DNA from: Beroe forskalii
Lineage: Eukaryota > Ctenophora > Nuda > Beroida > Beroidae
Direction of reading: 5' to 3'
Assembly (NCBI GenBank): GCA_011033025.1
Contig: WFMF01000463.1
Span: forward strand, 1-64,000
Length of the DNA stretch: 64,000 bases
Positions 9,003 through 59,471 of the stretch are shown in pieces. The notes below the pieces were generated by a model that searched no databases, was not told where the DNA came from, and saw only the letters and a program-made list of their open reading frames with translations. Numbering within the stretch: position 1 is the first letter of the stretch; each line of letters begins with the position of its first letter. Made by a program: the position numbers and the translations under genes.

Positions 9003-10017
9003 CTGCACCTTACTAGCCCCTTATTAGCCCCTTATTAGCCCCTTATTAGCCCCTCACTAGCCCCTTATTAGCCCCTCACTGGCCCTTATTGGCCTCACTA
9101 GCCCCTTATTAGCCCCTCACTAGCCCCTTATTAGCCCCTCACTAGCCCCTTATTAGCCCCTCACTAGCCCCTTATTAGCCCCTCACTAGCCCCTTATTAG
9201 CCCCTCACTAGCCCCTTATTAGCCCCTCACTAGCCCCTTATTAGCCCCTCACTGGCCCCTTATTAGCCCCTCACTAGCCCCTTATTGGCCCTCACTAGCC
9301 CCTTAGCCCCCCTCACTGGCCCTTATTGGCCCCTTATTAGCCCCTCACTGGCCCTTATTTGCCCTCACTGGCCCTTATTAGCCCCTCACTGGCCCTTATT
9401 GGCCTTATTGGCCCTCACTGGCCCCTTATTAGCCCCTCACTGGCCCCTTATTGGCCCCTCACTAGCCCCTTATTAGCCCCTCACTAGCCCCTTATTAGCC
9501 CTCACTAGCCCCTTATTGGCCCCTCACTAGCCCATTATTAGCCCCTCACTAGCCCCTTATTAGCCCTTCACTAGCCCCTCACTAGCCCCTTATTAGCCCC
9601 TTATTAGCCCCTCACTAGCCCTTATTGGCCCCTCACTGGCCCTTATTAGCCCCTCACTAGCCCCTTATTGGCCCTCACTAGCCCCTTATTAGCCCCTCAC
9701 TAGCCCTTATTGGCCCTCACTGGCCTTATTGGCCCCTCACTAGCCCTCACTAGCCCTTATTAGCCCCTCACTAGCCCCTTATTGGCCTCACTGGCCTTAT
9801 TGGCCCCTCTGGCCCCTTATTAGCCCTCACTAGCCCCTTATTAGCCCCTCACTAGCCCCTCACTAGCCCCTTATTAGCCCTCACTAGCCCCTTATTGGCC
9901 CTCACTAGCCCCTTATTAGCCCCTCACTAGCCCCTTATTGGCCCTCACTGGCCTTATTGGCCCTCACTGGCCCTTATTGGCCCTTATTAGCCCCTCACTA
10001 GCCCCTCACCTGCCCTC
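9003..10017 (+). repeat. Left-arm tandem array, 22-bp unit
   Basis: About 45 copies of TAGCCCCTTATTAGCCCCTC occur, a 22-bp unit made of two similar 11-mers. Many variants replace TAG with TGG. The inverted counterpart is at 11,575-12,780. Reading frames in the array are by-products of the repeat. Confidence 0.9.
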
Positions 10018-11574: not shown

Positions 11575-12780
11575 GGCAGGTGAGGGGCTAGTGAGGGGCT
11601 AATAAGGGGCCAGTGAGGGGCCACAGGCTAGTGAGGGAATAAGGCCAGTGAGGGGCTTATGAGGCTAGTGAGGGCCAATAAGGGCCAGTGCTGGTAATAA
11701 GGGCTAATAAGGAGGGGCCAATAGTGGGCCAGTGAGGCTAATAAAGGGGCTAGTGAGGCCAATGCCCAGTGAATAAAGGGCTAGTGAGGGGGCTGAAAAA
11801 AGACTGGTGAGGCCAATAAGGCTACAGTGAGGCCAATAAGGGTTGGGGGGCAAATGGGGGCTAGTGAGGGGCTAGTGAGGGCTAATAAGGGGGCTAATAA
11901 GGCCAGTGACCGGCTAGTGAGGGGCTAATAAGGGGCTAGTGAGGGGCTAATAAGGGGCTAGTAGTGAGGGGCTAATAAGAGGCTAGTGAGGGGGCTAATA
12001 AGGGGGCTAGTGAGGGCTAATAAGGGGCTAGTGAGGGGGCTAATAAGGGGGCTAGTGAGGGGCTAATAAGGGGCTAGTGAGGGGCTAGTAAGGGGCTAGT
12101 GAGGGGCTAATAAGGGGCTAGTGAGGGGCTAATAAAGGGGCTAATAAGGGGCTAGTGAGGGGCTAATAAGGGGCTAGTGAGGGGCTAATAAGCCAATAAA
12201 AAAGGGGCTAATAAGGGGCTAGTGAGGGGCTAATAAGGGCCAGTAGGGGCTTTAATAAGGGCCAGTGAGGGCTAATAAAGGGGGCTAGTGAGGGGCTAAT
12301 AAGGGGCTAGTGAGGGGCTAATAAGGGGCTAGTGAGGGGCTAATAAGGGGCTAGTGAGGGGCTAATAAGGGGGCTAGTGAGGGGCTAATAAGGGGGCTAG
12401 TGAGGGGCTAATAAGGGGCTAGTGAGGGGCTAGTGAGGGCTAATAAGGGGCTAGTGAGGGCTAATAAGGGGCTAGTGAGGGGGCAAATAAGGGGCTAGTG
12501 AGGGGCTAGTGAGGGGCTAATAAGGGGCTAATAAGGGGCTAGTGAGGGGCCAATAAGGGGCTAGTGAGGGGCCAGTGAGGGCTAGTGAGGGCTAATAAGG
12601 GGGCTAGTAGAGGGCTAATAAGGGGCTAGTGAGGGGCTAATAAGGGGCTAGTGAGGGGCTAATAAGGGGCCAGTGAGGGGCTAATAAGGGGCTAGTGAGG
12701 GGCTACAAGGGCTAGTGAGGGGGCCAGTGAGGGGGCTAATAAAGGGGGCTAATAAGGGGCTAATGGGGGGGCTAGTAAGG
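11575..12780 (-). repeat. Right-arm tandem array, 22-bp unit
   Basis: This array is the inverted counterpart of 9,003-10,017, written on the plus strand as GAGGGGCTAATAAGGGGCTA. It is about 190 bp longer than the left array and more irregular, with several indels that break the 22-bp period. Confidence 0.9.
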
Positions 12781-20384: not shown

Positions 20385-20810
20385 TTACAGCTCTCCGTTA
20401 GCTTCCTGCTCCTTCACTCCCATCAAACTGTCGCAAATGGCGATCAGTTCTCTCTCTGAGCTCTCCTGAAAATATCATGGTGGAGAATGGCGATTGGAGT
20501 AGTAGTAAGACGTAATTCGAAGAGAAGTTGATATTTCGCGCTATTACTCTCTACCAGATCGTATCAGGAGGGGGCAATGTTATTTTATGCTACCAGGCAT
20601 TGCCGGCCATTTCATCTAAAAACACGACTAGCCGGATGGCTGTGTCCTTTGCCTTCCCCTGTTGAGTGATATCAATCAATTACTGATACCTTATCTAGGA
20701 ACTTGCTCTGCCAGGATTTGCACTCCAACTCGAGTCTCTTGATCGAAGCTTCCATCATAACCTTGTCCTTCTCGCATTCACCTCTGATGCTTTCCATTCG
20801 CACGTTGGCT
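20385..20810 (-). CDS. Last two TACC exons
   Basis: Exon 20,810-20,690 follows acceptor CCCTTTCAG and encodes 40 residues of coiled coil (ANVRMESIRGECEKDKVMM). It ends at ATAAG|GTATCA. Exon 20,465-20,385 follows ATATTTTCAG and encodes ESSERELIAICDSLMGVKEQ plus six more residues and TAA. The ICD-L motif near the end is the most conserved part of the TACC family, so this fixes the gene's 3' end. Confidence 0.85.
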
Positions 20811-23800
20811 CTGAAAGGGTGACGTCAGAAATCGAGAGGGAGGAGGAAAATGAAGAATTTTAAGAGAAAATGAACAAGAATGTATCAAGATCAAGATAAT
20901 ACAATATGCATACAATTCATAGTCAGGAGCGAAGGTTGAGGTTGTCCCAATATTATCCCTCTCCTGCCCCTACTCACGTTTCTAGGAGTTCGTCGCACTT
21001 GGAGGAAATGACCCTGCAGTTAGTCTCGCTCTTCTCCAGCTCTTCCTGGTAAGTCCTGATCTTCTCTTCCAACTCATCCTCCCTCTTCTTCATCGTATTG
21101 ATCACCTCCCTCGCTCTGTCGTATCTCTTGTGAAGGTCCGACATGGCGGAGTGGCTGATATCCATCTCCTTCAGGATCTTGGTGTTGTCTTCTGACAGCT
21201 TCTTCACTTGTCGCTGGAGGGTCTCCTCACGAGGTCGATGGTGTTGGATGAGAAGTTCAGTGTACGCCATGTTGTGAGCTGATATCACAGCATCCTGAAA
21301 TAAGGGACAGGGTTCAGTGTAGACCATGTTATGAGCTGATATCACAGCATCCTGAAATAAGGGACAGGGTTCAGTGTAGACCATGTTATGAGCTGATATC
21401 ACAGCATCCTGAAATAAGGGACAGGGTTCAGTGTAGACCATGTTATGAGCTGATATCACAGCATCCTGAAATAAGGGACAGGGTTCAGTGTACGCCATGT
21501 TGTGAGCTGATATCACAGCATCCTGAAATAAGGGATAGGGTTCAGTGTAGGCCATGTTGTGAGCTGATATCACAGCATCCTGAAATAAGGGACAGGGTTC
21601 AGTGTACGCCATGTTGTGAGCTGATATCACAGCATCCTGAAATAAGGGACAGGGTTCAGTGTACGCCATGTTGTGAGCTGATATCACAGCATCCTGAAAT
21701 AAGGGATAGGGTTCAGAGTAGGCCATGTTGTGAGCTGATATCACAGCATCCTGAAATAAGGGATAGGGTTCAGTGTACGCCATGTTGTGAGCTGATATCA
21801 CAGCATCCTGAAATAAGGGATAGGGTTCAGTGTAGGCCATGTTGTGAGCTGATATCACAGCATCCTGAAATAAGGGATAGGGTTCAGTGTACGCCATGTT
21901 GTGAGCTGATATCACAGCATCCTGAAATAAGGGAAAGGGTTCAGTGTACGCCATGTTGTGAGCTGATATCACAGCATCCTGAAATAAGGGATAGGGTTCA
22001 GTGTACGCCATGTTGTGAGCTGATATCACAGCATCCTGAAATAAGGGATAGGGTTCAGTGTAGGCCATGTTGTGAGCTGATATCACAGCATCCTGAAATA
22101 AGGGATAGGGTTCAGTGTACGCCATGTTGTGAGCTGATATCACAGCATCCTGAAATAAGGGACAGGGTTCAGTGTACGCCATGTTGTGAGCTGATATCAC
22201 AGCATCCTGAAATAAGGGACAGGGTACAGTGTATGCCATGTTGTGAGCTGATATCACAGCATCCTGAAATAAGGGACAGGGTTCAGTGTATGCCATGTTG
22301 TGAGCTGATATCACAGCATCCTGAAATAAGGGACAGGGTTCAGTGTAGGCCATGTTGTGAGCTGATATCACATCATCCTGAAATAAGGGACAGGGTACAG
22401 TGTAGGCCATGTTGTGAGCTGATATCACAGCATCCTGAAATAAGGGATAGGGTTCAGTGTACGCCATGTTGTGAGCTGATATCACAGCATCCTGAAATAA
22501 GGGATAGGGTTCAGTGTACGCCATGTTGTGAGCTGATATCACAGCATACTGAAATAAGGGATAGGGTTCAGTGTAGGTTATGTTGTGAGCTGATATCACA
22601 GCATCCTGAAATAAGGGATATGGTTCAGTGTACGCCATGTTGTGAGCTGATATCACAGCATCCTGAAATAAGGGATAGGGTTCAGTGTACGCCATGTTGT
22701 GAGCTGATATCACAGCATCCTGAAATAAGGGATAGGGTTCATTGTAGGCCATGTTGTGAGCTGATATCACAGCATCCTGAAATAAGGGATAGGGTTCAGT
22801 GTACGCCATGTTGTGAGCTGATATCACAGCATCCTGAAATAAGGGATAGGATTCAGTGTAGACCATGTTGTGAGCTGATATCACAGCATCCTGAAATAAG
22901 GAATTGGGTTCAGTGTAGGCCATGTTGTGAGCTGATAACACAGCATCCTGATATAAGGGATAGGGTTATGGTTAAGTGACAGAGCATGCTATAAGTGAGC
23001 ACCGATATCACCGTTACTCTGATTGAATCTGAACATGACAATAAAAATATACCCGAATATACAGCAGTCACCTGGAAATCAATAATCCGACATATTTCTC
23101 AGTGACTATCATGCAAATGTTCCCGTTATCTGCTAGTAATCCAACCTACAAAATACATTAATGTGAGGAGCATCGCTTACCAAGGACGATGCGTCTGGGG
23201 TGGCTATTCCTGACTTGAGGAGAGTTATCTCGCTGTTCTTGCTTTCCACAGCCGTCTCCAGCTTCCTCCGTTCAGCCTGCCACTGAGAATGGGCATACAG
23301 TCAGAGGTTTGGTGAATTGGGGCAAAAGTTTTATATGGGAAAATTAATTTTGTTAGGACGAATTCGCGAAAAATCACGCTGATGCTATAGCCAGCCAAAA
23401 GAAGCATCAAATTCGCCCAAAATAGGGAGAATAATTTAGACTTCATCTACCGCATCCGGATATCTACATGCAGAATTAACCCAACCTCCCCCCCGCAGTC
23501 TACATTAACATAATAATCTTAACATACACGACTGATATTTATCAATTTAAGTCATTATCTGCCAAAAAACCATTGGCCATGGCCCCATAAAAGCATAAAG
23601 CCAATACCATATGACATATTGGGATTTCCGAAACACCCAATTGCAAACACTCATGGAACCCCCACAACTCATTAAATTTTAAACATCTCCCTAACATAAT
23701 CAACGAGAAAAAAAGTTGGATTGAAACAATAAAATAATTTCAATACAGCGAAGGAAATTCGGGCCCAAAAATAAACAATTTACAGAAATGATTATTCAGA

Positions 23801-26800
23801 TGAACAGAACATCCAATTACAGAGGGAAGAATAGTTCCTTTAAAGGTCAGCATATTCAAAAGTCCATCCACCCTTCTCTTGACTCATCACCAAATCATCA
23901 TTTTCGATTTTGAGGTACAGCATTTCCCCATCAGGATTGCCGGTGGAAGGCAGGTGCATACCAAGCGCACAGTCCACAGGTCGCATAACATTCTGTGTCT
24001 TCTCAATGTCAAAGTCTTTATAACGGAATTCCTGTGGATTCTCGGGATTGGTCTCAACTGAGTATCCATTGGCATGCAGGATATGTCGTGCTTGCCATCT
24101 GAAATTCGCTCCCTCTTTCGCAAAGAGGCGTACCTTTTTATCCTTCTTTCCTTTGGAACCGAGAATCATATCAAGTTCATCTGAGTGAAGTTTCCAGAAT
24201 CCTGATATTCCGACACTGAATCGCTGCGAACTTGATGTCTTATCCATCTTGCCAAAGGCAAGGGTTTTGGTCTTTTTTCTTTCCCCAGGAGCCAAGTCGA
24301 AGACTTGGTTGCTTGCCTCATTGTAAATCAGGCAGTTACTGAGGGACCATTTTTTATCCCCATTTATGCGATAATCGAGAGAAAGTTCCCGCACTGTTTC
24401 TACTATTTCCTTGAATGTGTTTCCTACCAGATGATAAGACGGGAATTCGAATGAAATCATCCGCCCATAACTGGTGAAGAAAGGAGCAGCTTCGCTCTTG
24501 TTACTCACGAGAGTAAGTGTCTCTGGAATGCCGTTTCCAGGCTTTATTCCGACATACTGTCCCGATGCTTCATCTTTCAAGTAGATAACCATCTGGCTCT
24601 TTGCGAATGCCCTCTGTGGACCTGCTGCGTTCCCGTTGAAATCGGAAACCAATTGGAAGGCACCGGATGAATCTTCTACCACACCTTTGCAGAGAGATCC
24701 GATGAAAGCACATCTGTTCTTTGCTGTGCCCCAGTTCTTCGTAGTATTGACTGTTATTTGGTGGGTGTTTTTGTCAAGGAAAGTCACTTGGTTTTCATCA
24801 ACCCCACCTTCCAGCTCAGTAAAGTATGCATTCGCTCTGTCATAGTCATATAATACGTTAGGGAAGAAAGCCTTCTTTATAAGTCCACGGCCACAAATAG
24901 AGTCCTTTGGGGTCATCCAGGCACCGAATTTGCCATAATTTTCCTGTGCCATAATGTGAGTTTTGTTGTAACCAATAAGAGAATTAGCATGGAGACATCC
25001 ACCCCTGCACTTTTCACCCTTTGGTCTGCCAGATCTGGTGAAGCATGTTGTAAGAGGACCTCTTTGAAGGGCTGCGATTGTTTTATTAACACTCTTAGCA
25101 CCTCTAATCCCTGCTACAATCGCAAACTGATCATCAAGAGCGTTTGTCCAGTCATTTGGATTCTTCTTGCCACATTTCTTGTAGCACTCTGTTTTCCTCT
25201 CTCCTTGCTTGACACACTTCCTCCTGGTGTAGGGGATTTCATTCTCAGGAACAATGAAGTTGTCTCTCCTCACCTGGCCAGACACAGCATAGATAGACGC
25301 CCCCACGCAGGGCCGCCCAGCGCAGTTCATGAAGTTCTGAATAGAGTATGGGATGTAGTTCTCCGACACGAAGGCGATCCTCCCCTCGATGGTTTGGGTG
25401 CCGGCTATCCAGGCGCAGGATCCGCACATCCCCTGCCAGATGGGGCGGTGGATGATCCCCAGATCCCTCAGATCCAGCTCTTCAGGGTAGTCCGACGGGT
25501 CGAAGGAGGTATCATCGCCATCGTCAATTTCTTCGTCCATGTCGTCGTCTTCATCTTCATTTGAAGAGATCTCAATGCCATTAGCAAACTCCGCTGCCTC
25601 CAAGGCTGAGGCAAGAGAGTCCTCATATAGGACACCGGGGAATTCCCAGGTCCTAGTTGTCACAATGACGATAGATATTAGGATTATTAGTTTCATCTGA
25701 AAGGGGATGAGGCACACTAAATAACGAGCTTTCCTGGGACGTTTGGAATCTGGATGGATACGTACTTCGGGCCGTCAATTTATACTCTCCGAGTAACACA
25801 AGAACACGTTGTTTGAACCGATCCCCACAGTGTCCTTTCTCCATTAACGTGGCAAATTTAAGTTTAAGATGTTATTTTTCACAAGACATGGTTAGTTGGA
25901 CGAGATGAAAAGTATGAGCCAGCTGCAGTCCGCTCTAGCTATAAGCTGTCAAAAATTTAATAGTTACTTTTAATTCACAAGCGTGTTAGGAATTATAAGA
26001 AGTCAACAAATAAACACAGGGCGGATCGAGACTAAACAATAAACAAGTTTCGATATTAACACTGGCATATTAAAATTTCGAGGTAAGAAACATCTGTTAT
26101 TCTTTTTATCAGTGCTGCGGATTGAATTTGAACCCAGTCCCAGTCAAAATTGCCCATTCCAAGAAATCTCACTTCTAAGAACAAGCCCTGTTCACTTTCC
26201 GCAGAACTGCTGTCAGACCGTTTTGACACTACTTTAATAGAGGTTTCACTGTTTAGTCTGCTCGGCATAAAAATTCAAAGCTGTTTGCCGTCAAAGAGTC
26301 CTTCATTCAAAAAACCCAAAATAAACGAGCAATCTAAAAAATAAATAGAAACGCGCCTATCACGTCCATTTTGGGATACTTCTCAAAGACGCAGCCCAAG
26401 GAATGAAACCGGCATAGAACCACAGCACGAAAGGCGAAGGTATAAACCAACATGGATTGAGGATGCAATCCTTTGATTATAGATTAGCTTTTCATAAACC
26501 AAAACTCATACTCAAATTGTGAGATTTTCTTACAATTCTAAGTCTCGCCCGCTGCCCGGTTAAATGAAGACCAATATTTAGTAAGTCATTGCTCACGAAA
26601 TAGGGAAATTAAAGCATTTCAATCTTACTAACCCAATCTTACTTACCCAAATAAATTATCACTGTTGAAACATTTAGAAATACAGTTCTGAAATTCTCAA
26701 GCAAAAATTATTGCAAATTAAAGTCTACGAAAAGGCATCAAATTTTAATTAGCCTATTCCATAGTTTCCAAAAAAGGATTGATTATGGAAAATGAGGATG

Positions 26801-29800
26801 TGATATTATAATGCCCTTGCAATTAGTATGCGGATATCTCCTACAATCGGCCACTGGACACAAATAACTGATGAAATCGCAAGTAATGTATAAAGGTTAC
26901 TTACCTGGGCTCTTTCAGCCTGCTTTGAACTTTCGATCATTTCTCGGACCTCCTCTTCACTGTAGATCTGGGGTAGAGATGTGAATTAGATGTGTTTTAT
27001 ATACCGTCACGGTACAATCGTTGCCAAGGTCAAAATGAAATAGCGTTTATTGCTAGAAAAACCGTCGAAGTGAAACGCAGGGAAAAATAATATAAAAGGA
27101 ACACCATGTACCTTGCCCGTGTTTTGTTCTTTACTCTCAACTGCGTTATCATTGTCACTGAAATGAGCAATTTTCAATGAATTAAAACATAATTATTTTC
27201 ATTCCATGCTTGGTAAATGGTAATTTAATAAGACAGTAAGCCAACGTCATTCGAAACTAATCGATAATAAATAAGTAAATAGGCTATAGTTCGACTGCAT
27301 AATGTATCTGACATAATCATGATAATTGCTTTGAGTGACCAACACCACTCACATTCCGTTGTGGCGATGCTGCGTGTCAGGAGATTGGTTGTTAACATGG
27401 TTGCTAGGGGCGTTGCTACGGTTGCTAGGCAACATGGAGTCTGCATGGGGGTTGCGAGACAGCCGGGTGGAGTCTGGTGTAGGGATCGCTTGGGACATGT
27501 TGTCAATTGGACTGTCTGGGGATTGTATCGGCGCTTCTCTGAAATTATAGATTGGATTTTTAATGCTATTTTGTTAACACAGAGGTGCCATTCAATAACT
27601 TAGCTGTGACTGTACAGTGTATAACTGATTTAGTGAAATACTATGCATGACATGGTAAAAGTTGGAGTTTAGGGTATTGCCTTTGGCTTAATAAAATTGG
27701 TCAATAAAAGTGATTTAGACTCAGTTCATCCATTGACTGTGAAAGGTATTGAAGTGGCTTGACTCTTGACAAGGTATGAAAGTGCCTTGACTCTTGAGAG
27801 CTTTTTACCTGTGGTTTGATTCTTGAGAGTTGGGTTTAAAGGGCAAAGGTTAGGGGAAAAGTGTTAAAGTGTCCTGAATCTTGAGGGTTTACCTGTTTTT
27901 GAAAGGCATTAAAGTGCTTGACTCTTGAGAGTTTACCTGTTTGTTGCTGAAGCGGCGTCGTGGAATTCGTCACTGTCAAGGGACCGTCCTGAAGCACTGA
28001 TTGATAAGAAATCTGCATTCTGCAATGATGAGACAGACGAACAAGACAACACCGAAATTACAGACACAGACAAGCAACGATACTGGCACATACAGGCGCT
28101 GATTTACGCATTGATTCGCAGTGTATAATTTAACACACCTGTATCTTCTGTACTCCGGCTAATTTTCTTTAGATTTGTACACAGGTAACTCTCAACTTTG
28201 AAAACCTCAGCAAGGTTTAGAGAGTTGAGAGTTTTTGGGGATAGTTTCAGAAGAGCCGAGGGAGGCAGTTTTTCCAACACTGACATTGGCAAGTCCTCAA
28301 TTCTGTCACTATTAAGTTTACTGATCACTGAGACACTTAGGGTTTCTATTACCCTGTTAGGTAACGTTGATATGGTTTGAGGGTTGAGTTTTTCAAGTGT
28401 TTTAGGAGATAATCGGGATAGCAAACCAGTATCTAATTGTTCCAACGTTTTTGGGTCGAGCTTCTCAATAATCTTAGGGTTTAGCTTAGCTAAGCACTTA
28501 GGATCGCACCTGTCGAGGACTCTGGGATTCAGGCTTTCTAAACGTTTTGGAGACAATCTGCTCAGAAGCTTGGAATCAAACCGTTCTAAGGTTTCGTCGT
28601 TCAACTTCTCGATAAGACTGACATCCAAGGTTTCTAATCGGCTAATGTTAAGGAGTTGAAGAACTTTAGGTTCAAGCTTCTGTAACACAGTACCACTTAG
28701 TTTCGAGATGGTTTCAGGGTGCATCTTTGAAATCAAAGCAGGATCTAACTGTTCAATAACCGAAACCTCCAGCTGTTCAAGCATACTGACAGGCAGACTG
28801 TTCAGTATTGTAGCAGGGAACAGTTTGAGGCTTTCAGGACCAAATCCAAACAGGGATTCAGGCGGAAGCATGCTAGTTTTAGAAGTAGGCAGCAGTTGTA
28901 AAACTTTAGGACTCAGTCTAGCAAGAAGATTGGAGTCCAACTTTTCTAAAACTTTGGGAGACAGACCTTCAAGTGTCATGATGTCAAGCTGTTCCAGACA
29001 GTTGTGATCAAGATCTTTCAGTTTCTTGGGAGGTAACTTTTTGAGAACTGAGGGTGGCATCTCGTTGAGGATGTCAATGGGTAATTTCTGGAGGAATTCA
29101 GGTCTCGCAGCTTTTAAATCTTTGATGGTCAAATATTGGAATATTCTACTTGTTAATGAATTCAATAAAACTTCTGGTACTTTCTCTAGAATAGAAAATG
29201 GCATCTGTTCCAGTATTTCAATAGGCATTTGTTCTATGATTTCTATTGGCATTTGAGCAATGATGGAGGAGGGAAGTGTTTGTATAGTATCAATTTTGAG
29301 GGTAGCGATCCTATCCAGTGGTAATTTAGCGAGAATGTGAGCATCTATTTTATCAAGAACCTTGTTGTCAAGCTCATTTATCAGCTTCATGTCCAATGAT
29401 TGTATCATAGAAGTGTCCAACTGGCCGATAATATCTGCACTCAACTGTTGGATTGTAGACTTGTCAAGGAGTGCAATAATCTGTGGACTCAATCTTTCGA
29501 TTACGGATGGTTTCAGTGATTGAATTGTTTTCATGTCAAGACTTTCAAGCACAAATGTATCAAGATCCTCAAGAATTTCTGGTGACAACTTCTTCAAAAC
29601 CTTTGGAGGTAGAGTATTCAGGACGTCTCTATCAAACTTTTCGATGATATTTCCAGGTAGTTCAGAAATAACTGTGACATTGAGAGTCTGTAGGAGTTTT
29701 GGAGAGAGTGTCTGGAGTCTTGAAACATTCAACTTTTCCAAAACATACTTTGGAAGACTCAAAAGGGTAGCATCATCGAGACACTCAATAGCGTTTGGGC

Positions 29801-32642
29801 TGAGAGTTGCTATGATATCAGGACTGATTTTCGATAATATTTCTGGAGGCAGACCTTTCAAAATATGGGGAGGGAGTTGCTCTAATATGTTTAATAGGAA
29901 TGGACTCAAGAACAGAACTGTCAAGCCCTGAAATTGTACCAGGACTCATTTGAGCAATAACATCACTTGGTAGTTGCCGAATGATATTTGGGTCAAGTTT
30001 CTCAAGAGACTTTGTGTCTAACCGAGACATAGCATCTATATTGAGTCTGCCTATAACTTCACTTCCTAAATTAGCTATGATTTCAGGGTTTAGTCTTTGT
30101 ATAGTGGTAATTGGAAGTTTGCCAATAACTTCGGGGTCAAGAGATTCAATGACAGATGTATCAAACATTACAATTATGTCAGTAGGTAATTGGTTAAGGG
30201 TTGAGTTGCTTAATCCTTGGATAATTTTGGGATCTAAAGTCTTAATGATATGCAGACCCAAACTACCAATCACATCTAAATCAAGTGTTTCGAGTACATA
30301 GTGGGGTAACTTTTTCAATATACTCGTGGAGAAGTGATTGAGACGCTCTGGTTTCAATTTTCTGATGATATCAATGTCCAGTTGTTGCAAAAGGTCCACA
30401 TCAAGTTTATTGAGAACACTCGTGTGGAGCATCTCAATGACCTTAACATCAAGCCTGCTAATTACACTCACATCCAAACTACCGATCACATCAGAGGGCA
30501 GGGAACTGATGATACCCAAAGACAAACCAGCAATGACCTGGGGTGGCAGCCGGGCTATAACAGTCAGTTCTAATCGCTCTATGACATCTGGATCCAGCTT
30601 AGCAATCGTTGCACTCTCAAGTTTGTTTAGGCAGTGTGGAGGCAGGTTACGGAGAACCTGAGGCTTCAGTTTAGCTAGACATTTTGGGCTCAGCTGTGAT
30701 AAGCGATCAGTGTCCAATGTGTTCAGGATCTTGGGACTAAACTGCTCAATAACAGAAACATCCAGCCTATTGAACAGGAGCTTTTGTTTTTCTAAAAATG
30801 GTATGCTGAGTCGATTGAGAACAGAGGAGCTCAGCATTTCGATGATTTCGATTGGTAAGCTTTCAATGAATGAAGAGTCAAATTGTGCTATAAAGTGAGG
30901 ATCCAGTTTCCTGATTACCTTCAAATCAAGTGTTTGAACGAACATTGGGTCTAGTGATTGCAGTGCTTGTGATGGAAGTGTTTCCAAGATTTCTGTCTTG
31001 AGACCCATTAGATCTTCTGGTGAGAAAGTTGCCAGTATCTCTTTAGGCATCTTCTTGATGATTTTATGATCAAACTGTGAGATAGTGTGAGGGGGAAGTT
31101 GTCCAAGCACTGATACATCCAGCCTTTGCAAGACTGGGATGGGAAGGTTTGAAAGCACAGAGACAGGCAATAAATTGAGCAGAGCAGGGTCAAGCTTTTC
31201 CAAAACTGTAGGTTTAAGCCTTGAAATCAATGCAAAGTCAAGCATGCTGATGATCCTTATCGGAAGTTTTTCAACAATTTTTGGATCCAGCTGATTAATC
31301 GTAGTAACATCCAACTTCTCTATGATAGTGATGTCTAAAGACTGAATAATGTGGATTGGAAGCTGCTTGATAAGACTGACATTAAGTTTTTGGATTGTCC
31401 TTTTATCAAGGCTGGCTAGGGTCGTTATACTTAGTCTCTCCAGACTAGAAATAGGAAGTGAACTCAAGACTGAAGGGCTGATTCCAGACAGAGCTTGCTC
31501 ACTTAAACTCTCCAGAACTTTCGTGTCCAACTGCTCAAGCAACGATGGAGAGATATTGTTCAAGACAGATGGAGCCAACTTTGAAATGATAGACAAATTT
31601 AATTTTTCAATGATCTTATAGTCTATTTTCTGAATCACACCAATGGATAAACGTTCAATGGCTCTAGGATCCAAAGCTTCTATTGTGTGTAAACTGAGTT
31701 TTTCCAAAATGGAAGGCTTTAGTTCAGCCAGTTTTCCAGGGGAAACTAGATCTAAGAATTGTGGATCACACTTTTCTAGAACCACAGCAGGCAACTGCTC
31801 AACATATACAGAATCTAGTCTCTGGACAAATTGCTGACTAAGTTTTGTTAACACAGTAAAGGGCTGATAAATTAAGAAGTCGATTCCCAGTGATTCAATG
31901 CAGGGCCCGTCCAGAGAAGCAATAACATTGGAGTTGAACTGTTGAATAACATCAACTGGCATGGTCTGTAGGATGGAAACATCAAGAGTTTCTAGTTTCT
32001 CAGGAGGGAGGGTAATAAGTTTAGAAACAGGGAGCTTTGCGAGAACATCACTTGGCAAGCACTGCACAACCTCAGCTTCAAGCTGAACCAAAACCTCTGC
32101 TGGCAAATCAGTCAAGCAAGCAGGCGTCAGCTGGTTCAACAATGTCGGGGGCAACTTTTCTAGCGAAGCAGTACTCAGTCGTTCAATGACAGTTATATCC
32201 AGGGTTTCAATGACTGTGGGAGGCAGGGTGTCAATTACAAGAGGATCCAAGGATTCAATTACGGTTGGAGATAAGATTGCAATTCTCTCCGGACTCAGAC
32301 TACCAATTGCAGTGACACTGAGTTTCTCAACGATTTCATTCGGCAGTTTTTCAATAGTTGAAGGTTCGCACTGCTTCTCAATTTCTTCTGGAGTGAGTTT
32401 GGACACATCCTTCTTCCTCCCCCCTCGGGTTAGGGTTGTAATCCTACCACCCCTTTTACTAGGGGTCCCAGTGGAATTCCTGCTGCTGCTTTTAGATGGA
32501 GTGCCACTAGATCTCCTGGAGCTACTGGTGGAACCACCTCGAACAGGGGTCGTGGCACCAGAACGACTTTACTGGGACCTTCCCCAGACTTGGTGGGACT
32601 TCCTTTGGTGCCCTTGGGGGCATCACTTTGCCGAGCAAACAT
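20385..32642 (-). CDS. TACC-family protein with giant octapeptide-repeat region (multi-exon)
   Basis: Coding exons are reconstructed by splice sites and phase, in order of transcription: 32,642-28,139; 28,012-27,937; 27,538-27,353; 27,157-27,112; 26,967-26,905; 23,282-23,181; 21,294-20,978; 20,810-20,690; 20,465-20,385 (stop). Every junction has GT/AG and keeps one reading frame. The C-terminus has the TACC coiled coil: SDLHKRYDRAREVI, then EELEKSETNCRVISSKCDEL, ending with ELIAICDSLMG. In vertebrate TACCs the equivalent segments are SDL-KYE-LKEVI and the terminal ICDELI. TACC proteins bind microtubule plus ends and centrosomes through XMAP215/ch-TOG and Aurora A. Upstream are Ser/Pro/Asn-rich linker exons (SASGRSLDSDEFHDA; RLSRNPHADSMLPSNRSN) and a huge exon of octapeptide repeats. 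The first coding exon has two apparent frame breaks at A-tracts. The 5' untranslated exon(s) were not found; an acceptor at 32,671 implies at least one. Confidence 0.8.
20978..21294 (-). CDS. TACC-domain exon with amplified 3' splice site
   Basis: The shortest form of this exon starts after TTATTTCAG at 21,295 and reads DAVISAHNMAYTELLIQHH, then coiled coil (LQRQVKKLSEDNTKILKEMD, SDLHKRYDRAREVI), ending CDELLET at donor AAAC|GTGAGT. The 57-bp unit at its 5' edge, including the acceptor itself, is repeated 29 more times upstream. If the most upstream acceptor (22,948-22,950) were used, the exon would be 1,970 bp and add 551 residues in the same frame. The phase fits the exon at 23,181-23,282 in every case. 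Confidence 0.8.
21238..22950 (-). repeat. 57-bp tandem array: 30 in-phase 3' splice sites
   Basis: Each unit read on the minus strand has CCCTTATTTCAG followed by GATGCTGTGATATCAGCTCA and CAACATGGCGTACACTGAAC. Unit length is 57 bp (19 codons) with no stop. The distance from the first to the last acceptor is 1,653 bp, exactly 29 units. Units are nearly identical, differing mainly at a few positions (ACC/CC, GTG/GTT, TGT/TAT), so the array is young. If translated, each unit adds 19 residues (DAVISAHNMAYTEPYPLFQ). The open frame on the opposite strand is a by-product. Confidence 0.9.
23181..23282 (-). CDS. Coiled-coil exon of the TACC gene
   Basis: This 102-bp exon between ATTCTCAG and TTG|GTAAGC reads WQAERRKLETAVESKNSEIT, then LLKSGIATPDASSL. 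Both ends are phase 0, matching the exon before it (26,905) and every acceptor of the amplified exon after it. Confidence 0.75.
23840..25717 (-). CDS. Papain-family (C1A-like) cysteine protease with long C-terminal domain, intronless
   Basis: This encodes 625 residues. A signal peptide is seen at residues 8-22 (MKLIILISIVIVTTR). Met8 is the better start for it; the sequence before it (CCCCTTTCAG|ATG) also looks like a splice acceptor. Residues 53-69 are very acidic. The protease domain begins near 78 (PEELDLRD). The oxyanion Gln is 95 and the active-site Cys is 101 in QGMCGSCAW; papain has CGSCWA, so W and A are exchanged. The His is 243 in CLHANSLIGY and the Asn is 260 in ENYGKFGAW. The usual long ERFNIN-type propeptide is absent. 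Residues ~290-625 form an unrecognised, probably beta-rich domain (e.g. GQYVGIKPGNG, FRWQARHILHANGY). The product is likely secreted or lysosomal. The gene lies inside a TACC intron (23,283-26,904), on the same strand. Confidence 0.8.
   Translation of the reverse strand: MCLIPFQMKLIILISIVIVTTRTWEFPGVLYEDSLASALEAAEFANGIEISSNEDEDDDMDEEIDDGDDTSFDPSDYPEELDLRDLGIIHRPIWQGMCGSCAWIAGTQTIEGRIAFVSENYIPYSIQNFMNCAGRPCVGASIYAVSGQVRRDNFIVPENEIPYTRRKCVKQGERKTECYKKCGKKNPNDWTNALDDQFAIVAGIRGAKSVNKTIAALQRGPLTTCFTRSGRPKGEKCRGGCLHANSLIGYNKTHIMAQENYGKFGAWMTPKDSICGRGLIKKAFFPNVLYDYDRANAYFTELEGGVDENQVTFLDKNTHQITVNTTKNWGTAKNRCAFIGSLCKGVVEDSSGAFQLVSDFNGNAAGPQRAFAKSQMVIYLKDEASGQYVGIKPGNGIPETLTLVSNKSEAAPFFTSYGRMISFEFPSYHLVGNTFKEIVETVRELSLDYRINGDKKWSLSNCLIYNEASNQVFDLAPGERKKTKTLAFGKMDKTSSSQRFSVGISGFWKLHSDELDMILGSKGKKDKKVRLFAKEGANFRWQARHILHANGYSVETNPENPQEFRYKDFDIEKTQNVMRPVDCALGMHLPSTGNPDGEMLYLKIENDDLVMSQEKGGWTFEYADL
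25777..25784 (-). promoter_or_regulatory. Probable TATA box of the nested protease gene
   Basis: TATAAATT on the minus strand lies 60 bp upstream of the first ATG and 81 bp upstream of the preferred Met8 codon. That spacing would allow transcription to start near 25,750. Confidence 0.45.
26905..28012 (-). CDS. Four small linker exons of the TACC gene
   Basis: Exon 28,012-27,937 follows AATGCAG and reads DFLSISASGRSLDSDEFHDA and on. A second AG seven bases upstream is out of phase with the preceding donor. Exon 27,538-27,353 is Pro/Ser/Asn-rich (EAPIQSPDSPIDNMSQAIPT). Exon 27,157-27,112 reads DNDNAVESKEQNTGK. Exon 26,967-26,905 reads IYSEEEVREMIESSKQAERA and starts the coiled coil. Exon lengths (76, 186, 46, 63) keep the phase throughout. 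Between 27,158 and 27,352 and between 27,539 and 27,936 only intron is seen. Confidence 0.75.
28139..32642 (-). CDS. First coding exon: about 175 octapeptide repeats
   Basis: It starts at ATG 32,640-32,642 (MFARQSDAPKGTKGSPTK), after an acceptor CGTTGCAG at 32,671-32,678. A Ser/Thr/Arg-rich basic segment follows (SSRRSSGTPSKSSSRNSTG). From about 32,390 to 28,190 the protein is an almost unbroken run of 8-residue units of the type L-x-P/x-x-V/I-I/L-E/x-K/x, for example LSPTVIES, LDPLVIDT, LPPTVIET, LNPKIIEK and LPPSALLK. Only one unit near 30,780 is short (7 residues). The register keeps Leu at position 1 and branched residues at 5 and 6, while the DNA of the units has diverged, which points to selection on the protein. 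The frame changes at A-tracts 32,568-32,570 and 29,890-29,892. One extra A at the first and one fewer at the second would keep the octads continuous, so these may be sequence errors. The exon ends at donor ACAG|GTGTGT. Confidence 0.8.
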
Positions 32643-32670
32643 CAGATGATCATCAGTCAGTAGAGCTTAT

Positions 32671-39320: not shown

Positions 39321-41476
39321 CAGGTTTAGAGTAACCAATCTCAAGTCTGAAGTCAGGCCTCCACAACAGCGCATGATTATGAATTATGAAGCGGAGAACA
39401 TCTCTTAGAACTTCAACAGAAGATTACCAACGACCTTCTGACATAATAATACAAGGCTAACATTAAATCAACTTCTCAACCTGTTACTGGTTGCCTCGGA
39501 TCACGGATGAGCATTTTTTGCTTGTTATGACTATATATTATGTCCTTTATAGGTTTAAAGGCCGTCGGTATCAGAAGTCTTGACTTTCCTTTATAGTAAG
39601 CGCGAGTATTGCGATATACGAAATATTACAGTTTCAGATGCATGTGCTGTTCATTGTATTTCAATGGCAGGTGCAACTCAAACTCAAAGACTTCCCAATT
39701 AGAATAAACAAAGCCTTGACGTTGATGATTCAATAATAACCGTCACGAGTACGGCACGGCTCCAATGATTCTTATTGATAACAACCGCCTATTTTTATGA
39801 GATTTGACGATTTTTGCTTTCCTCTGCTAGGATTCTTTCCCACTGGGATTAACAAAGCCCCACGTGCCACATTTCTTATTCAGTTATTCATGCCCAAGCC
39901 GTTGCACTCATGCCTGAAAATGAAGTCACCATCACCCTTTTCATATCGAAAAATCAATGGCAGTTATTCTATCGAGCAAAATTAACTTCATATATTTTCA
40001 ACCATAATGAGAAATGATGCATCTCTTAAGTTCCCAGAGAGATTCAATGCACAGTCAGTCAGTGATTGCTAGTCGCCGCCCTCTTAGCTATAGATAACCA
40101 CGAGCTTAGTGATTTTACCCTGAACCTCCGGCTTTACGACTGGTACATTTTTGATCATGTTGGGTATGATACTTTTAACAATAATATCAAGCTATTCATA
40201 TTATGGCCATGGTGGTGAGTCACCCCTCCATATATTATGGTCCAATCTCATTCCCATAGGGGAGATAAGGCTCAAACCTAAGGTAAGTTTTCAAATTTCT
40301 CATACAAAAAATGAACCCAATAATGTTCACTTTTGAGTTTGATCCATTTCTTTTCCAGGTGCAGCTAATATAAGTTTAAATCAGAAATATTTCTCTTATT
40401 TCGAGCAAAATAAGTAACAGAAAATATCCGAAGATTATCGTCACTTAGGGTCATACATTGATTGATACTCGGCTTGAGAAGAAGCATGTATTGCTGGCCC
40501 AGACCCCTGCTTGTCATTCTATTCTAAAAATGAGTCTCAAGTCATATTTGGGCAACGATTTTATGTGCTCAAGCCGAAATAAATCTTATCCAACCATATT
40601 GGTTTAAAATTTGTGATCAAAAGATCAAAGGGAGCAAGCCTCAAAAAAGTCACAAAATATTACTGTATGGTTCGGGTTTAGATTTTTTTGGATATGGGAC
40701 CTTAAATGGCCCAAAAATGTAAGCTGAAATCTCGAAGATAAACTTTCAATTTCGGGAAGATACTAGATAAGGATGGCGATTTTCCAGTAATATGAACCTA
40801 TGTGGTGAGTAAACTTGAAGTATCTCGTTTCAATTCACCCTGAATGCTCTTTTTAAAATATGTTCTTCGCTGATTAGAGAAGTAGGTATCGTAGAATATC
40901 GACAGTTTTCTGTCACATCTTGTGTGAGAAACTATGTCCAGCAGTATGAGACGTATTATACTATTGTATGCTTATATAAAGTTAATACTATACAATAGGC
41001 TCGGCTCACATGTAAGTTATAATTTTACGGATCAAGGGTTGTCATAGTGTGTCAGATGTCTATCCATTATCGGACCATTGTCCTGCTAAACAGAAAACAT
41101 TATACGACGAATCTCTTCCAGATATTATGCTGATATTTGTATCCCATTGTTGAATTTATTATGCCTAAGTTGGATTCGATTTACTTTCATTTGAATTAAA
41201 GTTGATTAGTCGAGATCTCTATAGGAAATTTTGCATTTGTTATACGATGGCTTTGTCAATCGTTATTTCCTACCAGTACAATGGATTATTTTTCTCTCCA
41301 TCATAGACGAGCTTCTTCTTTTACCACCCGATACCACTGCTTTTTTAATACTACGCAATATTGGTCAGTATTTCGCATTCAGTTCCCGTTTCTTGTTTTC
41401 TACTAATTAAACTCTATCAATGAAACCAAGTATTCAGCATTAGATAACCTTACCACCCTCAGACACCATACAAACC
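39321..41476. other. Intergenic region upstream of the GPCR gene
   Basis: No gene is recognised. One inverted partial unit of the 24-bp minisatellite (CTGTTACTGGTTGCCTCGG) occurs near 39,480. The rest is AT-rich sequence without visible structure. Confidence 0.4.
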
Positions 41477-42589
41477 ATGAATGATTCTGCTACTACAGCT
41501 GCTTCATTTACAACATCCACTTCTACCGGATGGTTCATTGACCCTAGCAGTGACTCCGTGAGTTTCCTGACTGATGCTACCTTCAACATCGCCATGTTGA
41601 TAGTAACTCTTCTCCTGTCGCTAGTAGCAATAACACTCAACTTCTTCCTCACTACGTTCCATAAGAAGGATGCTAGAACCAAGATAACCGCCTTCATCTA
41701 CTTCATGTTGAGTGTCAGTGACATGTGCACCGGGATCTGTGCCTTGCTCCACACTCTCACATTCGCTGTCATTGTCCACGAGGGCATGAGCATGACAAAA
41801 CACGTCACGTGGCTTATAGAACCGGCTAACTTGCTGACTGCAGTAGCCTTCAAAACCTCGGCCTTCGTCAGCGTTACTTTTGCTATTATACGCACGATAA
41901 ACATCCTGCGACCCTTTTACAAAGTTAACATGCGGGCTCTGGTGATAGTCACAGGCGTGTACGTGGCTCTGTGGCTGTCTATCTACGTTGTGGATGTGGC
42001 TTTGTTCCTCTATCTGTGGCAGTATGGCGGCGTGGTGGAAAGGCTTCTATCTCGGTTCTACGAACCCAGCAAGTCCTACCTGGTAGAGTTCCTCAGCAGG
42101 AAATACCGAGTGCTGGATATTGGTTTGGAATGCGTGGGAGATTCTCTCTATACCATAGCCCCTGTCTTCCTTTGTGCCCTGATAGCGTTCATCGTGACAG
42201 GAATCCAGCTGGCCTACCTCTGGCGACCCTCCAAGACCTCGTCTGGCCAGGAGTACATTAACGAGAGAAAGACGGCTACTGTCACCATTATCATGATAAC
42301 GGTAGTCTTCATCCTGTGTGCCGGGGTCACCCTGCACGGTCCCCACGAGGTGTGTACTGACCCAACTAGCAGGAGTAGCGTGAAGCTCTACGTCACCGGT
42401 TACCTTCCTTTCTTTGTTAATGCTGCCATCAACCCACTCATCATAGTCTTCAGAATGAGCAAGGCAAAGGAGCATATCTTAGATCTGCTAGAAGGCTGGC
42501 TGCCCTACAGGAGACATCGGAGCTCCAGTGCTGTCAAAGCAACGACATTTTCATTGCCGCTGCGCCCTACTAACGAGCAGGCCGTTTGA
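41477..42589 (+). CDS. Class A (rhodopsin-like) GPCR, intronless
   Basis: This encodes 370 residues with seven hydrophobic segments at about 35-60, 70-98, 112-140, 153-180, 222-246, 264-286 and 305-326. The N-terminus is Ser/Thr-rich and without a signal peptide. The end of TM3 has IRTINILRPF in place of the usual DRY, keeping the central Arg (139). TM7 has NPLII (319-323) instead of NPxxY. TM6 lacks the usual CWxP. Cytoplasmic loops and the tail are basic (RRHRSSSAVK). A plasma-membrane receptor coupling to G proteins is expected from the family, but the ligand cannot be inferred. Intronless, fast-evolving class A receptors of this kind are often chemosensory or peptide receptors in invertebrates. 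The start has a good context (AAACCATGA) and no in-frame upstream ATG nearby. Confidence 0.85.
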   Translation: MNDSATTAASFTTSTSTGWFIDPSSDSVSFLTDATFNIAMLIVTLLLSLVAITLNFFLTTFHKKDARTKITAFIYFMLSVSDMCTGICALLHTLTFAVIVHEGMSMTKHVTWLIEPANLLTAVAFKTSAFVSVTFAIIRTINILRPFYKVNMRALVIVTGVYVALWLSIYVVDVALFLYLWQYGGVVERLLSRFYEPSKSYLVEFLSRKYRVLDIGLECVGDSLYTIAPVFLCALIAFIVTGIQLAYLWRPSKTSSGQEYINERKTATVTIIMITVVFILCAGVTLHGPHEVCTDPTSRSSVKLYVTGYLPFFVNAAINPLIIVFRMSKAKEHILDLLEGWLPYRRHRSSSAVKATTFSLPLRPTNEQAV

Positions 42590-43911: not shown

Positions 43912-45126
43912 TCATAGGACGAAAAGGTTGAAAATAATGATCAGTATTGCCTCCAATTCCTGTTTTCTTCTCTTCGTGTTTGCGCTTGTCGTTGAGACAT
44001 TTAAACTTGCTGTTGGCCATATTTCACTTGAAAAGTGAAAAAGAAGAGGCTTCTCTTTGCAGGGCTGAATCACCATGTCTTCAGAGCATGTCACGACCTG
44101 AAGATTCGAGTAGTTCAGAGCTTCAATCCCGAACGCAAAGTCGCACCGTATTGTCATCGAGGTACCTGCGAAAATGAAAGGCTGGTCTAGATGCCCCACT
44201 ATTCTTCCATGTTCCACCCGACCGTTTTCACAAGTTATATTCCAATCAGAGGCAGACCGAATATGGATACTTGTAGCCATAAGAAAATCCAATGTACTAT
44301 AATCATGACTATGATTTGGATAGCTCAATAAATTCCCGTTTATTCCTTCGATAAAATAATAACCTGATTGGTTCAATTTTTTTATGACGAATAGCTGTTG
44401 CTGGACCTTTGGAGGAACGACGACATTCTGATCTGAAAATGGCACGTCTATAATTGGTCCAAGTGAAAAACGATGGCGTGTCACATTACTCATTTCAGCG
44501 AACTGCAATGCATAGCCAGGTTTTGAGCGTGGTAAAATCCGGGTTACGTTCTGAGCAGGGCCTTTATAAGCTAGAGCCAGGACCCACAAGCTGGATATTG
44601 AGCATTTTACCATTTCGACTTCACTTGAACCATTACTGAAGATTCGAGGTGTCAGACATTTTGACCAAAACCAACTTAAAGTGAAAAAAACGCTTTCTGA
44701 AATTTCATATTTCTCCTTGGGATGCGTGACTAACAGTTGATATGCAAACGGCACATTGTGAAGACATGCCATTCTATAAAGCACGTATTTTCCTGAATCT
44801 TTGAAATTCATTGTATCATCATGACAGAAGGAATGATCGCAGGGAAGAATAGTGCACTCATAGGCTTGGTCTTGAATGTGGACAGTGAATGCTGGACAAT
44901 TCGACACTACCTTACAATATTCCCAGCATTGTTCCACGGATTCAGCGCTAGGAACTCTATCAAATCGTTTCGGTATCTCCTCCGCCGAAAACAGGCAATG
45001 TGAGTGGGACCTCAATTGTACAGGCAGCTGTTCAATATCAAAGGGAGGATATTTCCTTGCAGGAGACTGGGAAGGGATACAAGCGATGCATAGTAAGAAT
45101 ACTATATTGAAGAGAACGAAAATCAT
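43912..45126 (-). CDS. Secreted PAN/apple-domain protein, copy 1
   Basis: This encodes 404 residues. The signal peptide is at 1-18 (MIFVLFNIVFLLCIACIP). Residues ~40-125 are Cys-rich with the C-x3-C-x5-C pattern (C67, C71, C77) flanked by C44, C91, C96, C101 and C121, which fits a PAN/apple-type domain. Such domains bind proteins or sugars outside the cell. The remaining ~270 residues are not recognised but carry several N-glycosylation sites (NGS, NVT, NHS, NIT, NYS, NVS). The last residues are hydrophobic (LEAILIIIFNLFVL) and could be a GPI-attachment signal. A second, shorter frame overlaps the 3' end and is treated as a shadow. Two close paralogs follow at 50,324 and 58,153. The gene is intronless. 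Confidence 0.75.
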   Translation of the reverse strand: MIFVLFNIVFLLCIACIPSQSPARKYPPFDIEQLPVQLRSHSHCLFSAEEIPKRFDRVPSAESVEQCWEYCKVVSNCPAFTVHIQDQAYECTILPCDHSFCHDDTMNFKDSGKYVLYRMACLHNVPFAYQLLVTHPKEKYEISESVFFTLSWFWSKCLTPRIFSNGSSEVEMVKCSISSLWVLALAYKGPAQNVTRILPRSKPGYALQFAEMSNVTRHRFSLGPIIDVPFSDQNVVVPPKVQQQLFVIKKLNQSGYYFIEGINGNLLSYPNHSHDYSTLDFLMATSIHIRSASDWNITCENGRVEHGRIVGHLDQPFIFAGTSMTIRCDFAFGIEALNYSNLQVVTCSEDMVIQPCKEKPLLFHFSSEIWPTASLNVSTTSANTKRRKQELEAILIIIFNLFVL

Positions 45127-45230
45127 TTTAGCCTGTTGACACTAGAAAAAGTGACACCAAAGATGTCTCGATACTATTACAGTCTACAAATAACATTAAT
45201 TGATTTTCTTCGAACCGTAGCTCCAAGAAT

Positions 45231-50323: not shown

Positions 50324-51541
50324 TCATAGGACGAAAACGTTGAAAATAATGATCAGTATTGCCTCCAATTCCTGCTTTCTTCTCTTCGTGTTTGCGCTTG
50401 TCGTTGACACATTTAAACTTGCTGTTGGCCATATTTCACTTGAAAAGTGAAAAAGAAGAGGCTTCTCTTTGCAGGGCTGAATCACCATGTCTTCAGAGCA
50501 TGTCACGACCTGAAGATTCGAGTAGTTCAGAGCTTCAATCCCGAACGCAAAGTCGCACCGTATTGTCATGGAGGTACCTGCGAAAATGAAAGGCTGGTCT
50601 AGATGCCCCACTATTCTTCCATTTGGCACCCAACCGTTTTCACAAGTTATATTCCAATCAGAGGCAGGTCGAATATGGATTCTTGTAGCCATAGCAAAAT
50701 CCAATGTACTACTATAATCATGACCATGATTTGGATAGCTCAATAAATTCCCGTTTATTCCTTCGATAAAATAATAACCTAATTGGTTCAATTTTGTTAT
50801 GACGAATAGCTGTTGCTGGACCTTTGGAGGAACGACGACATTCTGATCTGAAAATGGCACGTCTATAATTGGTCCAAGTGAAAAACGATGGCGTGTCACA
50901 TTACTCATTTCAGCGAACTGCAATGCATAGCCAGGTTTTGAGCGTGGTAAAATCCGGGTTACGTTCTGAGTAGGGCCTTTATAAGCTAGAGCCAGGACCC
51001 ACAAGCTGGATATTGAGCATTTTACCATTTCGACTTCACTTGAACCATTACTGAAGATTCGAGGTGTCAGACATTTTGACCAAAACCAACTGAAAGTGAA
51101 AAAAACGCTTTCTGAAATTTCATATTTCTCCTTGGAATTCGTGACTAACAGTTGATATGCAAACGGCACATTGTGAAGACATGCCATTCTATAAAGCACG
51201 TATTTTCCTGAATCTTTGAAATTCATTGTATCATCATCACAGAAGGAACGATCGCAGGGAAGAATAGTGCACTCATAGGGTTGGTCTTGAAAGTGGACAG
51301 TGAATGCTCGACAATTCGACACTACCTTACAATATTCCCAGCATTGTTCCACGGATTCAGCGCTATGAACTATATCAAATGGTATCGGTATCTCCTCCGC
51401 CGAAAACAGGCAATGCGAGTGGGACCTCAATTGTACAGGCAGCTGTTCAATATCAAAGGGAGGATATTTCCTTGCAGGAGACTGGGAAGGGATACAAGGG
51501 ATGCGTAGTAAGAATAATATATTGAAGAGAACGAAAATCAT
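50324..51541 (-). CDS. Secreted PAN/apple-domain protein, copy 2
   Basis: This encodes 405 residues, closely similar to copies 1 and 3, with the same signal peptide, eight-Cys PAN-like region, glycosylation sites and hydrophobic tail. Differences from copy 1 cluster. IPKRFDRVPSAES becomes IPFDIVHSAES-type sequence (residues ~52-60), and NHSHDYSTLDFLMATSIHIR becomes NHGHDYSSTLDFAMATRIHI with one added Ser. An intact frame in all three copies suggests they are functional. The flank lacks the SINE found beside copies 1 and 3. Confidence 0.75.
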   Translation of the reverse strand: MIFVLFNILFLLRIPCIPSQSPARKYPPFDIEQLPVQLRSHSHCLFSAEEIPIPFDIVHSAESVEQCWEYCKVVSNCRAFTVHFQDQPYECTILPCDRSFCDDDTMNFKDSGKYVLYRMACLHNVPFAYQLLVTNSKEKYEISESVFFTFSWFWSKCLTPRIFSNGSSEVEMVKCSISSLWVLALAYKGPTQNVTRILPRSKPGYALQFAEMSNVTRHRFSLGPIIDVPFSDQNVVVPPKVQQQLFVITKLNQLGYYFIEGINGNLLSYPNHGHDYSSTLDFAMATRIHIRPASDWNITCENGWVPNGRIVGHLDQPFIFAGTSMTIRCDFAFGIEALNYSNLQVVTCSEDMVIQPCKEKPLLFHFSSEIWPTASLNVSTTSANTKRRKQELEAILIIIFNVFVL

Positions 51542-51645
51542 TTTAGCCTGTTAACACTAGAAAAAGTGACACCAAAGATGTCTCGATACTATTACAGTCT
51601 AAAAATAACATTAATTGATTTTCTTCGAACCGTAGCTCCAAGAAT

Positions 51646-59367: not shown

Positions 59368-59471
59368 TTTAGCCTGTTGACACTAGAAAAAGTGACACCA
59401 AAGATGTCTCGATACTATTACAGTCTACAATTATCATTAATTGATTTTCTTCGAACCGTAGCTCCAAGAAT

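Follow-up and report, generated by a model that had tools for sequence, protein, structure and literature searches.

The window, the whole 64,000-nt stretch of Beroe forskalii DNA that we analyzed (contig WFMF01000463.1, positions 1 to 64,000), carries on its minus strand a long exon encoding a tandem array of eight-residue units (octads) and, downstream of it, eight exons that lead into a TACC coiled coil. By our own count, approximately 174 consecutive units are encoded between positions 32,397 and 28,221 of the minus strand, close to the figure of about 175 octapeptides obtained earlier from the letters alone (hereafter, the sequence-only reading). From 5′ to 3′, the array consists of a 9-residue unit, 1 octad, 65 octads, a 7-residue unit, 36 octads, a broken unit, and 69 octads. 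Hence, two units deviate in length besides the broken one, and not a single unit as had been stated. The features of the window are listed in Table 1.

Table 1. Features of the 64,000-nt window: the octad exon, the exons assigned to the TACC gene, and other elements.
Feature	Position	Strand	Basis or remarks
Start of octad exon	32569..32670	minus	Acceptor, short 5′ UTR, probable start codon, N-terminus to first break
Basic low-complexity tail ahead of octads	32398..32568	minus	57 residues
Octads, first part	29902..32397	minus	9-residue unit + 66 octads + 7-residue unit + 36 octads
Unit split by second one-base frame break, A run	29877..29901	minus	Octad register kept across
Octads, second part	28221..29876	minus	69 complete octads
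Tail of octad exon	28139..28220	minus	Ends in donor CAG/GTGTGT, phase 1
Exon 2, S/T/D-rich linker, phase 1 in	27937..28012	minus	Alternative acceptor at 28019
Exon 3, P/S/N-rich linker	27353..27538	minus	Splice sites, phase
Exon 4	27112..27157	minus	Splice sites, phase
Exon 5, onset of coiled coil	26905..26967	minus	Splice sites, phase
Exon 6, TACC_C match starts	23181..23282	minus	Spliced product, Pfam
Exon 7, TACC core coiled coil	20978..21294	minus	57-bp minisatellite of its own acceptor precedes
Exon 8, TACC coiled coil	20690..20810	minus	Spliced product, Pfam
Exon 9, TACC domain end and stop codon	20385..20465	minus	Spliced product, Pfam
57-bp minisatellite	21255..22967	minus	28 copies
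Papain-like cysteine protease ORF, single exon	23843..25774	minus	Peptidase_C1, E 1.1e-11
Three similar single-exon ORFs	43915..45141; 50327..51550; 58156..59382	minus	408-409 residues
Single-exon ORF	41444..42586	plus	381 residues
Two 11-bp satellites	9008..10006; 11857..12780

Outside the octad and TACC exons, the window contains three single-exon ORFs that closely resemble one another, each cysteine-rich and with a signal-like start; of these, the first and the last listed gave no convincing match in Pfam. Nor was a convincing Pfam match found for the plus-strand ORF, which by eye resembles a multi-pass receptor. The consensus units of the two 11-bp satellites are roughly reverse complements of each other, and Rfam and tRNA scans of the window returned nothing.

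Octad statistics were scored on the 170 complete in-frame octads, leaving aside units 1 and 2, the 7-residue unit, and the unit split by a frame break. The motif reads L1 [D/P/S]2 [P/I/V]3 x4 [V/I]5 [L/I]6 x7 x8. Position 1 is Leu in 140/170 units, position 6 is Leu, Ile, or Val in 167/170, and position 5 is one of the same three residues in 106/170, which bears out the pattern read by eye (Leu at 1, Ile/Val/Leu at 5 and 6, Pro or Asp at 2-3). Position 2 is Asp, Pro, or Ser in 134/170 units (150/170 if Ser, Thr, Asp, Asn, and Pro are counted) and position 3 is Pro in 61/170, while positions 4, 7, and 8 show free variation, with polar or charged residues predominating. Across three stretches of the array, 0.96-1.00 of the units are hydrophobic at both positions 1 and 6, a share that did not exceed 0.40 when each stretch was shuffled 2,000 times. 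Similarly, the hydrophobic autocorrelation is 0.65-0.77 at lags 8, 16, 24, and 32, and lies between -0.31 and +0.13 at the remaining lags up to 33. A relaxed pattern search showed no second octad array in the 64-kb window.

The units have diverged strongly from one another. Mean identity between them is 39% in DNA and 26% in residues, only 1 of 14,365 unit pairs reaches at least 80% DNA identity, and the Leu at position 1 is written with all six Leu codons. This low identity, together with the codon usage, indicates an old repeat that is kept at the protein level, as the sequence-only reading had held. Origin as a recent DNA minisatellite was ruled out, as the tandem-repeat finder (TRF) reported only a small period-24 patch at 29,200-29,264 inside the array and DNA identity is 39%. 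Adjacent octads resemble each other slightly more (0.305 at lag 1 vs. ~0.24-0.28 at lags 2-24), consistent with old tandem growth.

The two boundaries originally proposed for the feature, 32642 and 28139, proved meaningful, with the former being the first base of the likely start codon (32642-32640) and the latter the last base of the exon. A 3′ splice acceptor (GTTGCAG) lies immediately upstream of the exon and is followed by a short, stop-containing 5′ UTR and then by the probable start codon. Residues from this codon to the first frame break are Ser/Gly/Pro/Lys-rich. The 57-residue basic tail that follows contains 14 Lys/Arg, 1 Asp/Glu, and 36 Ser/Thr/Pro/Gly, and it includes two TPSK motifs that differ in their codons.

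The exon had been read as an almost unbroken run of units, but we found its frame to be split by two one-base frame breaks, one near 32,571-32,566 and the other within 29,901-29,877. The stop-to-stop octad frames are 32,568-29,821 (916 residues) and 29,945-28,107 (613 residues) of the minus strand. Over 891 + 596 codons, flanks included, these two frames contain no stops, whereas the other same-strand frames contain 66 and 82 stops in the 891-codon stretch and 50 and 54 in the 596-codon stretch; the openness of the octad frames follows from the way in which they were found. At the second break the octad register continues across the interruption, so an intron is ruled out there and the break is an indel, i.e., a sequencing error, an allele, or a mutation. 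A small intron at the first break is still conceivable, but the repetition of TPSK with different codons in this stretch speaks for coding sequence.

Both breaks sit at short A runs, a usual place of sequencing error, and they may represent sequencing errors, alleles, or early decay. If the last of these applied, the locus would be a decaying pseudogene or a non-functional allele of an octad-TACC protein, as might be expected from the presence of two frame breaks in this exon when five other long gene-like ORFs in the window are unbroken. We regard this as improbable, as the two octad frames are free of stops, the TACC exons are open with good splice sites, and the location of both breaks at A runs points elsewhere.

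Exon 1 (32,670-28,139, minus strand) connects in frame with exon 2, which starts at 28,012. All nine exons have AG acceptors and GT donors with matching phases, and each of the eight junctions is in frame. The gap between the octad exon and exon 2 is 126 bp. Phase agreement between these two exons would arise by chance alone in 1/3 of cases, and the join was chosen among two acceptors and several donor registers. The sequence-only reading had joined the octads to the TACC exons by splice sites and phase; the donor CAG/GTGTGT, its phase, and the eight in-frame junctions are evidence of the same two kinds. These observations suggest that the octads and the TACC domain likely occur in one mRNA. 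A short, TACC-only transcript starting from an inner Met in exon 3 is also possible.

An alternative arrangement, in which an independent octad gene neighbors a TACC gene, the latter either taking exon 2 and those after it as its 5′ exons or having its 5′ exons elsewhere, would account for the probable start codon of the octad exon, for the in-frame stop approximately 11 codons past its donor, and for the frame of exon 2, which stays open some way upstream and includes a Met. Against it are the canonical donor and acceptor of matching phase only 126 bp apart, and the absence of AATAAA or ATTAAA on the minus strand from the end of the octad exon to exon 2, the nearest below being at 27,564. In addition, a T-rich stretch precedes the exon 2 acceptor, which implies that an upstream exon is needed. 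On balance, we consider two separate genes unlikely and retain the single octad-TACC gene.

The product spliced in silico matches TACC_C (Pfam PF05010) with an E-value of 9.5e-17 over profile positions 7-200 of 201, and its score of 61.8 bits against a curated cut-off of 29.9 places the domain in the TACC family, confirming the coiled coil that had been read downstream of the octads. With phmmer, the TACC3 structure 5lxn was also matched, though weakly (E 0.0019). TACC proteins possess a conserved coiled coil and variable, mostly disordered N-termini, which in vertebrate TACCs are of the SDP type. The protein predicted here shares with the family a C-terminal coiled coil that covers nearly the whole TACC_C profile, but differs in having an octad arm at its N-terminus. 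In TACC3, according to PMC11921806, this domain forms a parallel dimer and binds ch-TOG.

Two further elements are associated with the TACC exons. The papain-like cysteine protease ORF, which includes an acidic stretch, is nested on the same strand in the intron between exons 5 and 6. In addition, the 57-bp minisatellite that precedes the TACC core exon multiplies the 3′ splice site and opening codons of this exon. Its 28 copies of CAGGATGCTGTG are spaced at 57 or 114 bp, and the five copies that were sampled are all in frame and without stops. Depending on which acceptor within this minisatellite is used, the TACC protein could be lengthened in steps of 19 residues.

Searches for relatives of the octads returned bacterial proteins, a phage, and a single PDB entry. 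HeliScrew4 (PDB 9zem) was matched by phmmer from a single octad sequence with an E-value of 3.5e-5. It contains LTPEQIAA-type octads in the same register; it differs from the window octads in being 120 residues long and regular, and the likeness is one of sequence. From its name and sequence, HeliScrew4 is apparently designed. In tblastn, the 916-residue frame matched 36 plasmid records, 26 of them from Rhizobium or Shinella, with 21-23% identity over 88-93% of the query (best 20 of 36), and the 613-residue frame matched 29 plasmid records. The 916-residue frame also matched an octad-like stretch at the end of the record of Vibrio phage F23s1 (L004 1-572; tblastn E 3e-7). Two of the plasmid proteins and one protein from a whole genome proved to be ALTTAQ proteins (Pfam PF20080), with 51, 82, and 19 matched stretches. 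When run on three whole bacterial genomes, the octad profile matched 56 times, on contigs with PF20080 matches as well. Scans of viral contigs and of genome contigs with the window proteins revealed no relative.

Like the window octads, bacterial ALTTAQ proteins have a period of 8 with Leu at position 1 and Ile/Val/Leu at position 6, and they are long, almost pure repeat proteins. They differ at position 5, which is mostly Val or Ile in the window and usually Gln in the ALTTAQ units that were read; the window octads also have Pro at positions 2-3 and few Ala. The window octads gave no match to PF20080 at E ≤ 1 with either frame or at E ≤ 10 with two 30-octad pieces. In a column-permutation control against ALTTAQ, the native column order gave 43.9, a value equaled or exceeded by 8 of 1,200 permuted orders; none of 60 permuted orders was as high in a smaller run. 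Bacterial rows for these controls were picked by a hydrophobic rule and a few may be off register. The octad pattern is common to the window and ALTTAQ, and either common descent or independent origin may account for it.

The octad profile (A1) matched 10 of 100 genomes of one phylum, including one (G001) with an ALTTAQ protein already known. Three of the positives (G001, L019, L020) were examined. Of these, L020 matches PF20080, and L019 (in G009), the best row of the set, consists of LPRPLLRR-type units read from the strand opposite to an acidic repeat of eight residues. This bacterial repeat, of the EEAEEVAE type, leaves several further frames open over hundreds of codons and is a source of false octad matches. 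More generally, the periodicity of the octads inflates the E-values of the profile.

Several Pfam rows for unrelated families were also obtained with the octads, each spanning part of a short profile. Phage_TAC_7 scored 26.7 bits (cut-off 25), CAAP1 gave an E-value of 0.0075, and RPAP1_N scored 31.7 bits in one 30-octad piece (cut-off 25.3) and 22.8, below the cut-off, in another. Bacterial octad proteins also meet CAAP1 and Phage_TAC_7, and for this reason the rows are taken as pattern matches; we read RPAP1_N in the same way. No NCBIfam rows were found for the octads.

Leucine-rich repeats required closer consideration, as a 24-residue repeat could be read in thirds as three octads. Chains of this class score with the octad profile almost as HeliScrew4 does (best E 2e-10 vs. 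8.5e-11), and a weak LRR_8 row (E 0.81) is present in Pfam. With a single octad sequence as query, however, the same chains reach only E 0.3 or worse, the array has neither a period of three units nor a 24-residue superperiod, and its eight-residue unit lies outside the 20-29 residues of leucine-rich repeats. As AlphaFold2 also predicted no strand in either of two 30-octad stretches, we rejected this assignment as extremely improbable.

AlphaFold2 modeled 30 octads as 30 short helices, one per octad, with 0 strands, a pLDDT of 89.1, and a pTM of 0.72. The input for this model consisted of five rows of our own, namely the query and four other stretches of the array. A single-sequence run on 30 other octads yielded 29 helices, some of them longer or fused, again with 0 strands, at a pLDDT of 70.2 and a pTM of 0.42. 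Modeling of 20-30 octads had been proposed along with the original observation, and its outcome supports a helical nature, with the octads predicted to form one-turn helices. Prolines are expected at helix starts, and 108 of the 111 octad prolines occupy positions 2-3. Given the pTM values of 0.72 and 0.42, the overall shape of the arm is tentative.

Foldseek comparison of the octad model with the PDB gave no match at E ≤ 0.001 among 715 at E ≤ 10, and comparison with viral models gave none at E ≤ 0.001 among 533 matches. Mesothelin chains top the PDB list (E 2.2e-3, TM ~0.2), and 9zem is not among the best 50 of the 715 PDB matches. Mesothelin, stereocilin, and otoancorin resemble the predicted arm in being solenoids of short helices, 24 of them in mesothelin, but their repeats comprise 27-37 residues (PMC10035497) rather than 8. 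No Mesothelin row was found in Pfam for the window proteins at E ≤ 1, which does not place them in that family.

The sequence-only reading knew of no TACC with an octad solenoid. As a class, the repeat is not without precedent, being known from the PF20080 octads of bacteria and from HeliScrew4 in the PDB. An octad-bearing TACC is not described among the matches listed from open-licence papers (titles and abstract starts). A search of the open-licence literature found no papers on HeliScrew or ALTTAQ.

Taken as a whole, the evidence favors, with a probability of roughly 0.6, an animal TACC gene in which the large octad exon is the first to code and whose product would combine a basic tail, a stiff solenoid arm of ~174 octads acting as a spacer, and a TACC coiled coil. 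The product would begin with the basic, Ser/Thr/Pro/Gly-rich tail and continue through ~174 octads and a low-complexity linker into the coiled coil. Each octad would form a one-turn helix begun by an N-cap or Pro at positions 2-3, positions 1, 5, and 6 may pack their side chains into a continuous core, and the octads would then stack into one long, stiff solenoid. The basic tail may hold to microtubules or to another acidic partner, and the coiled coil would dimerize and bind a polymerase of the XMAP215/ch-TOG type, as in other TACCs. The combination of basic tail, stiff arm, and TACC end suggests an anchor, a spacer, and an adaptor, such that the arm might set the distance between the tail and the TACC end.

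A layer of a solenoid measures about 1 nm. Mesothelin has 24 helices in nine layers (PMC10035497), or 2.7 per layer, and at this ratio 174 helices would make ~65 layers and an arm of roughly 60 nm. It is tempting to picture a eukaryotic octad solenoid, either derived from bacterial ALTTAQ or of independent origin, that was built into a TACC as a ~60-nm ruler fixing the distance of the polymerase from an anchored basic tail; we hold this picture to be speculative and not likely to be correct in full.

The main functional rival to a ruler is a multivalent docking scaffold, in which variable outer faces of the octads would bind many partners. Free variation and the mostly polar or charged character of positions 4, 7, and 8 are what would be expected of such faces, and protein binding is common for ARM/HEAT solenoids (PMC10035497). 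When 10 features of the units were compared at lags 1-12, we nevertheless found no clear superperiod or stripe apart from a few isolated values, and we see the scaffold as a serious but minority possibility.

The library used contains no Pfam model that describes the window octads, and similar arrays may consequently lie unannotated in eukaryotic genomes. Among the bacterial, viral, and PDB collections searched here, the octad pattern appears otherwise only in uncharacterized bacterial proteins, one phage, and HeliScrew4. If the proposed structure is correct, the octad arm would place such a very short helical repeat, with one turn per unit, in an animal, and a TACC with so regular an arm would offer a natural system in which to ask how the spacing of microtubule anchor and polymerase counts.
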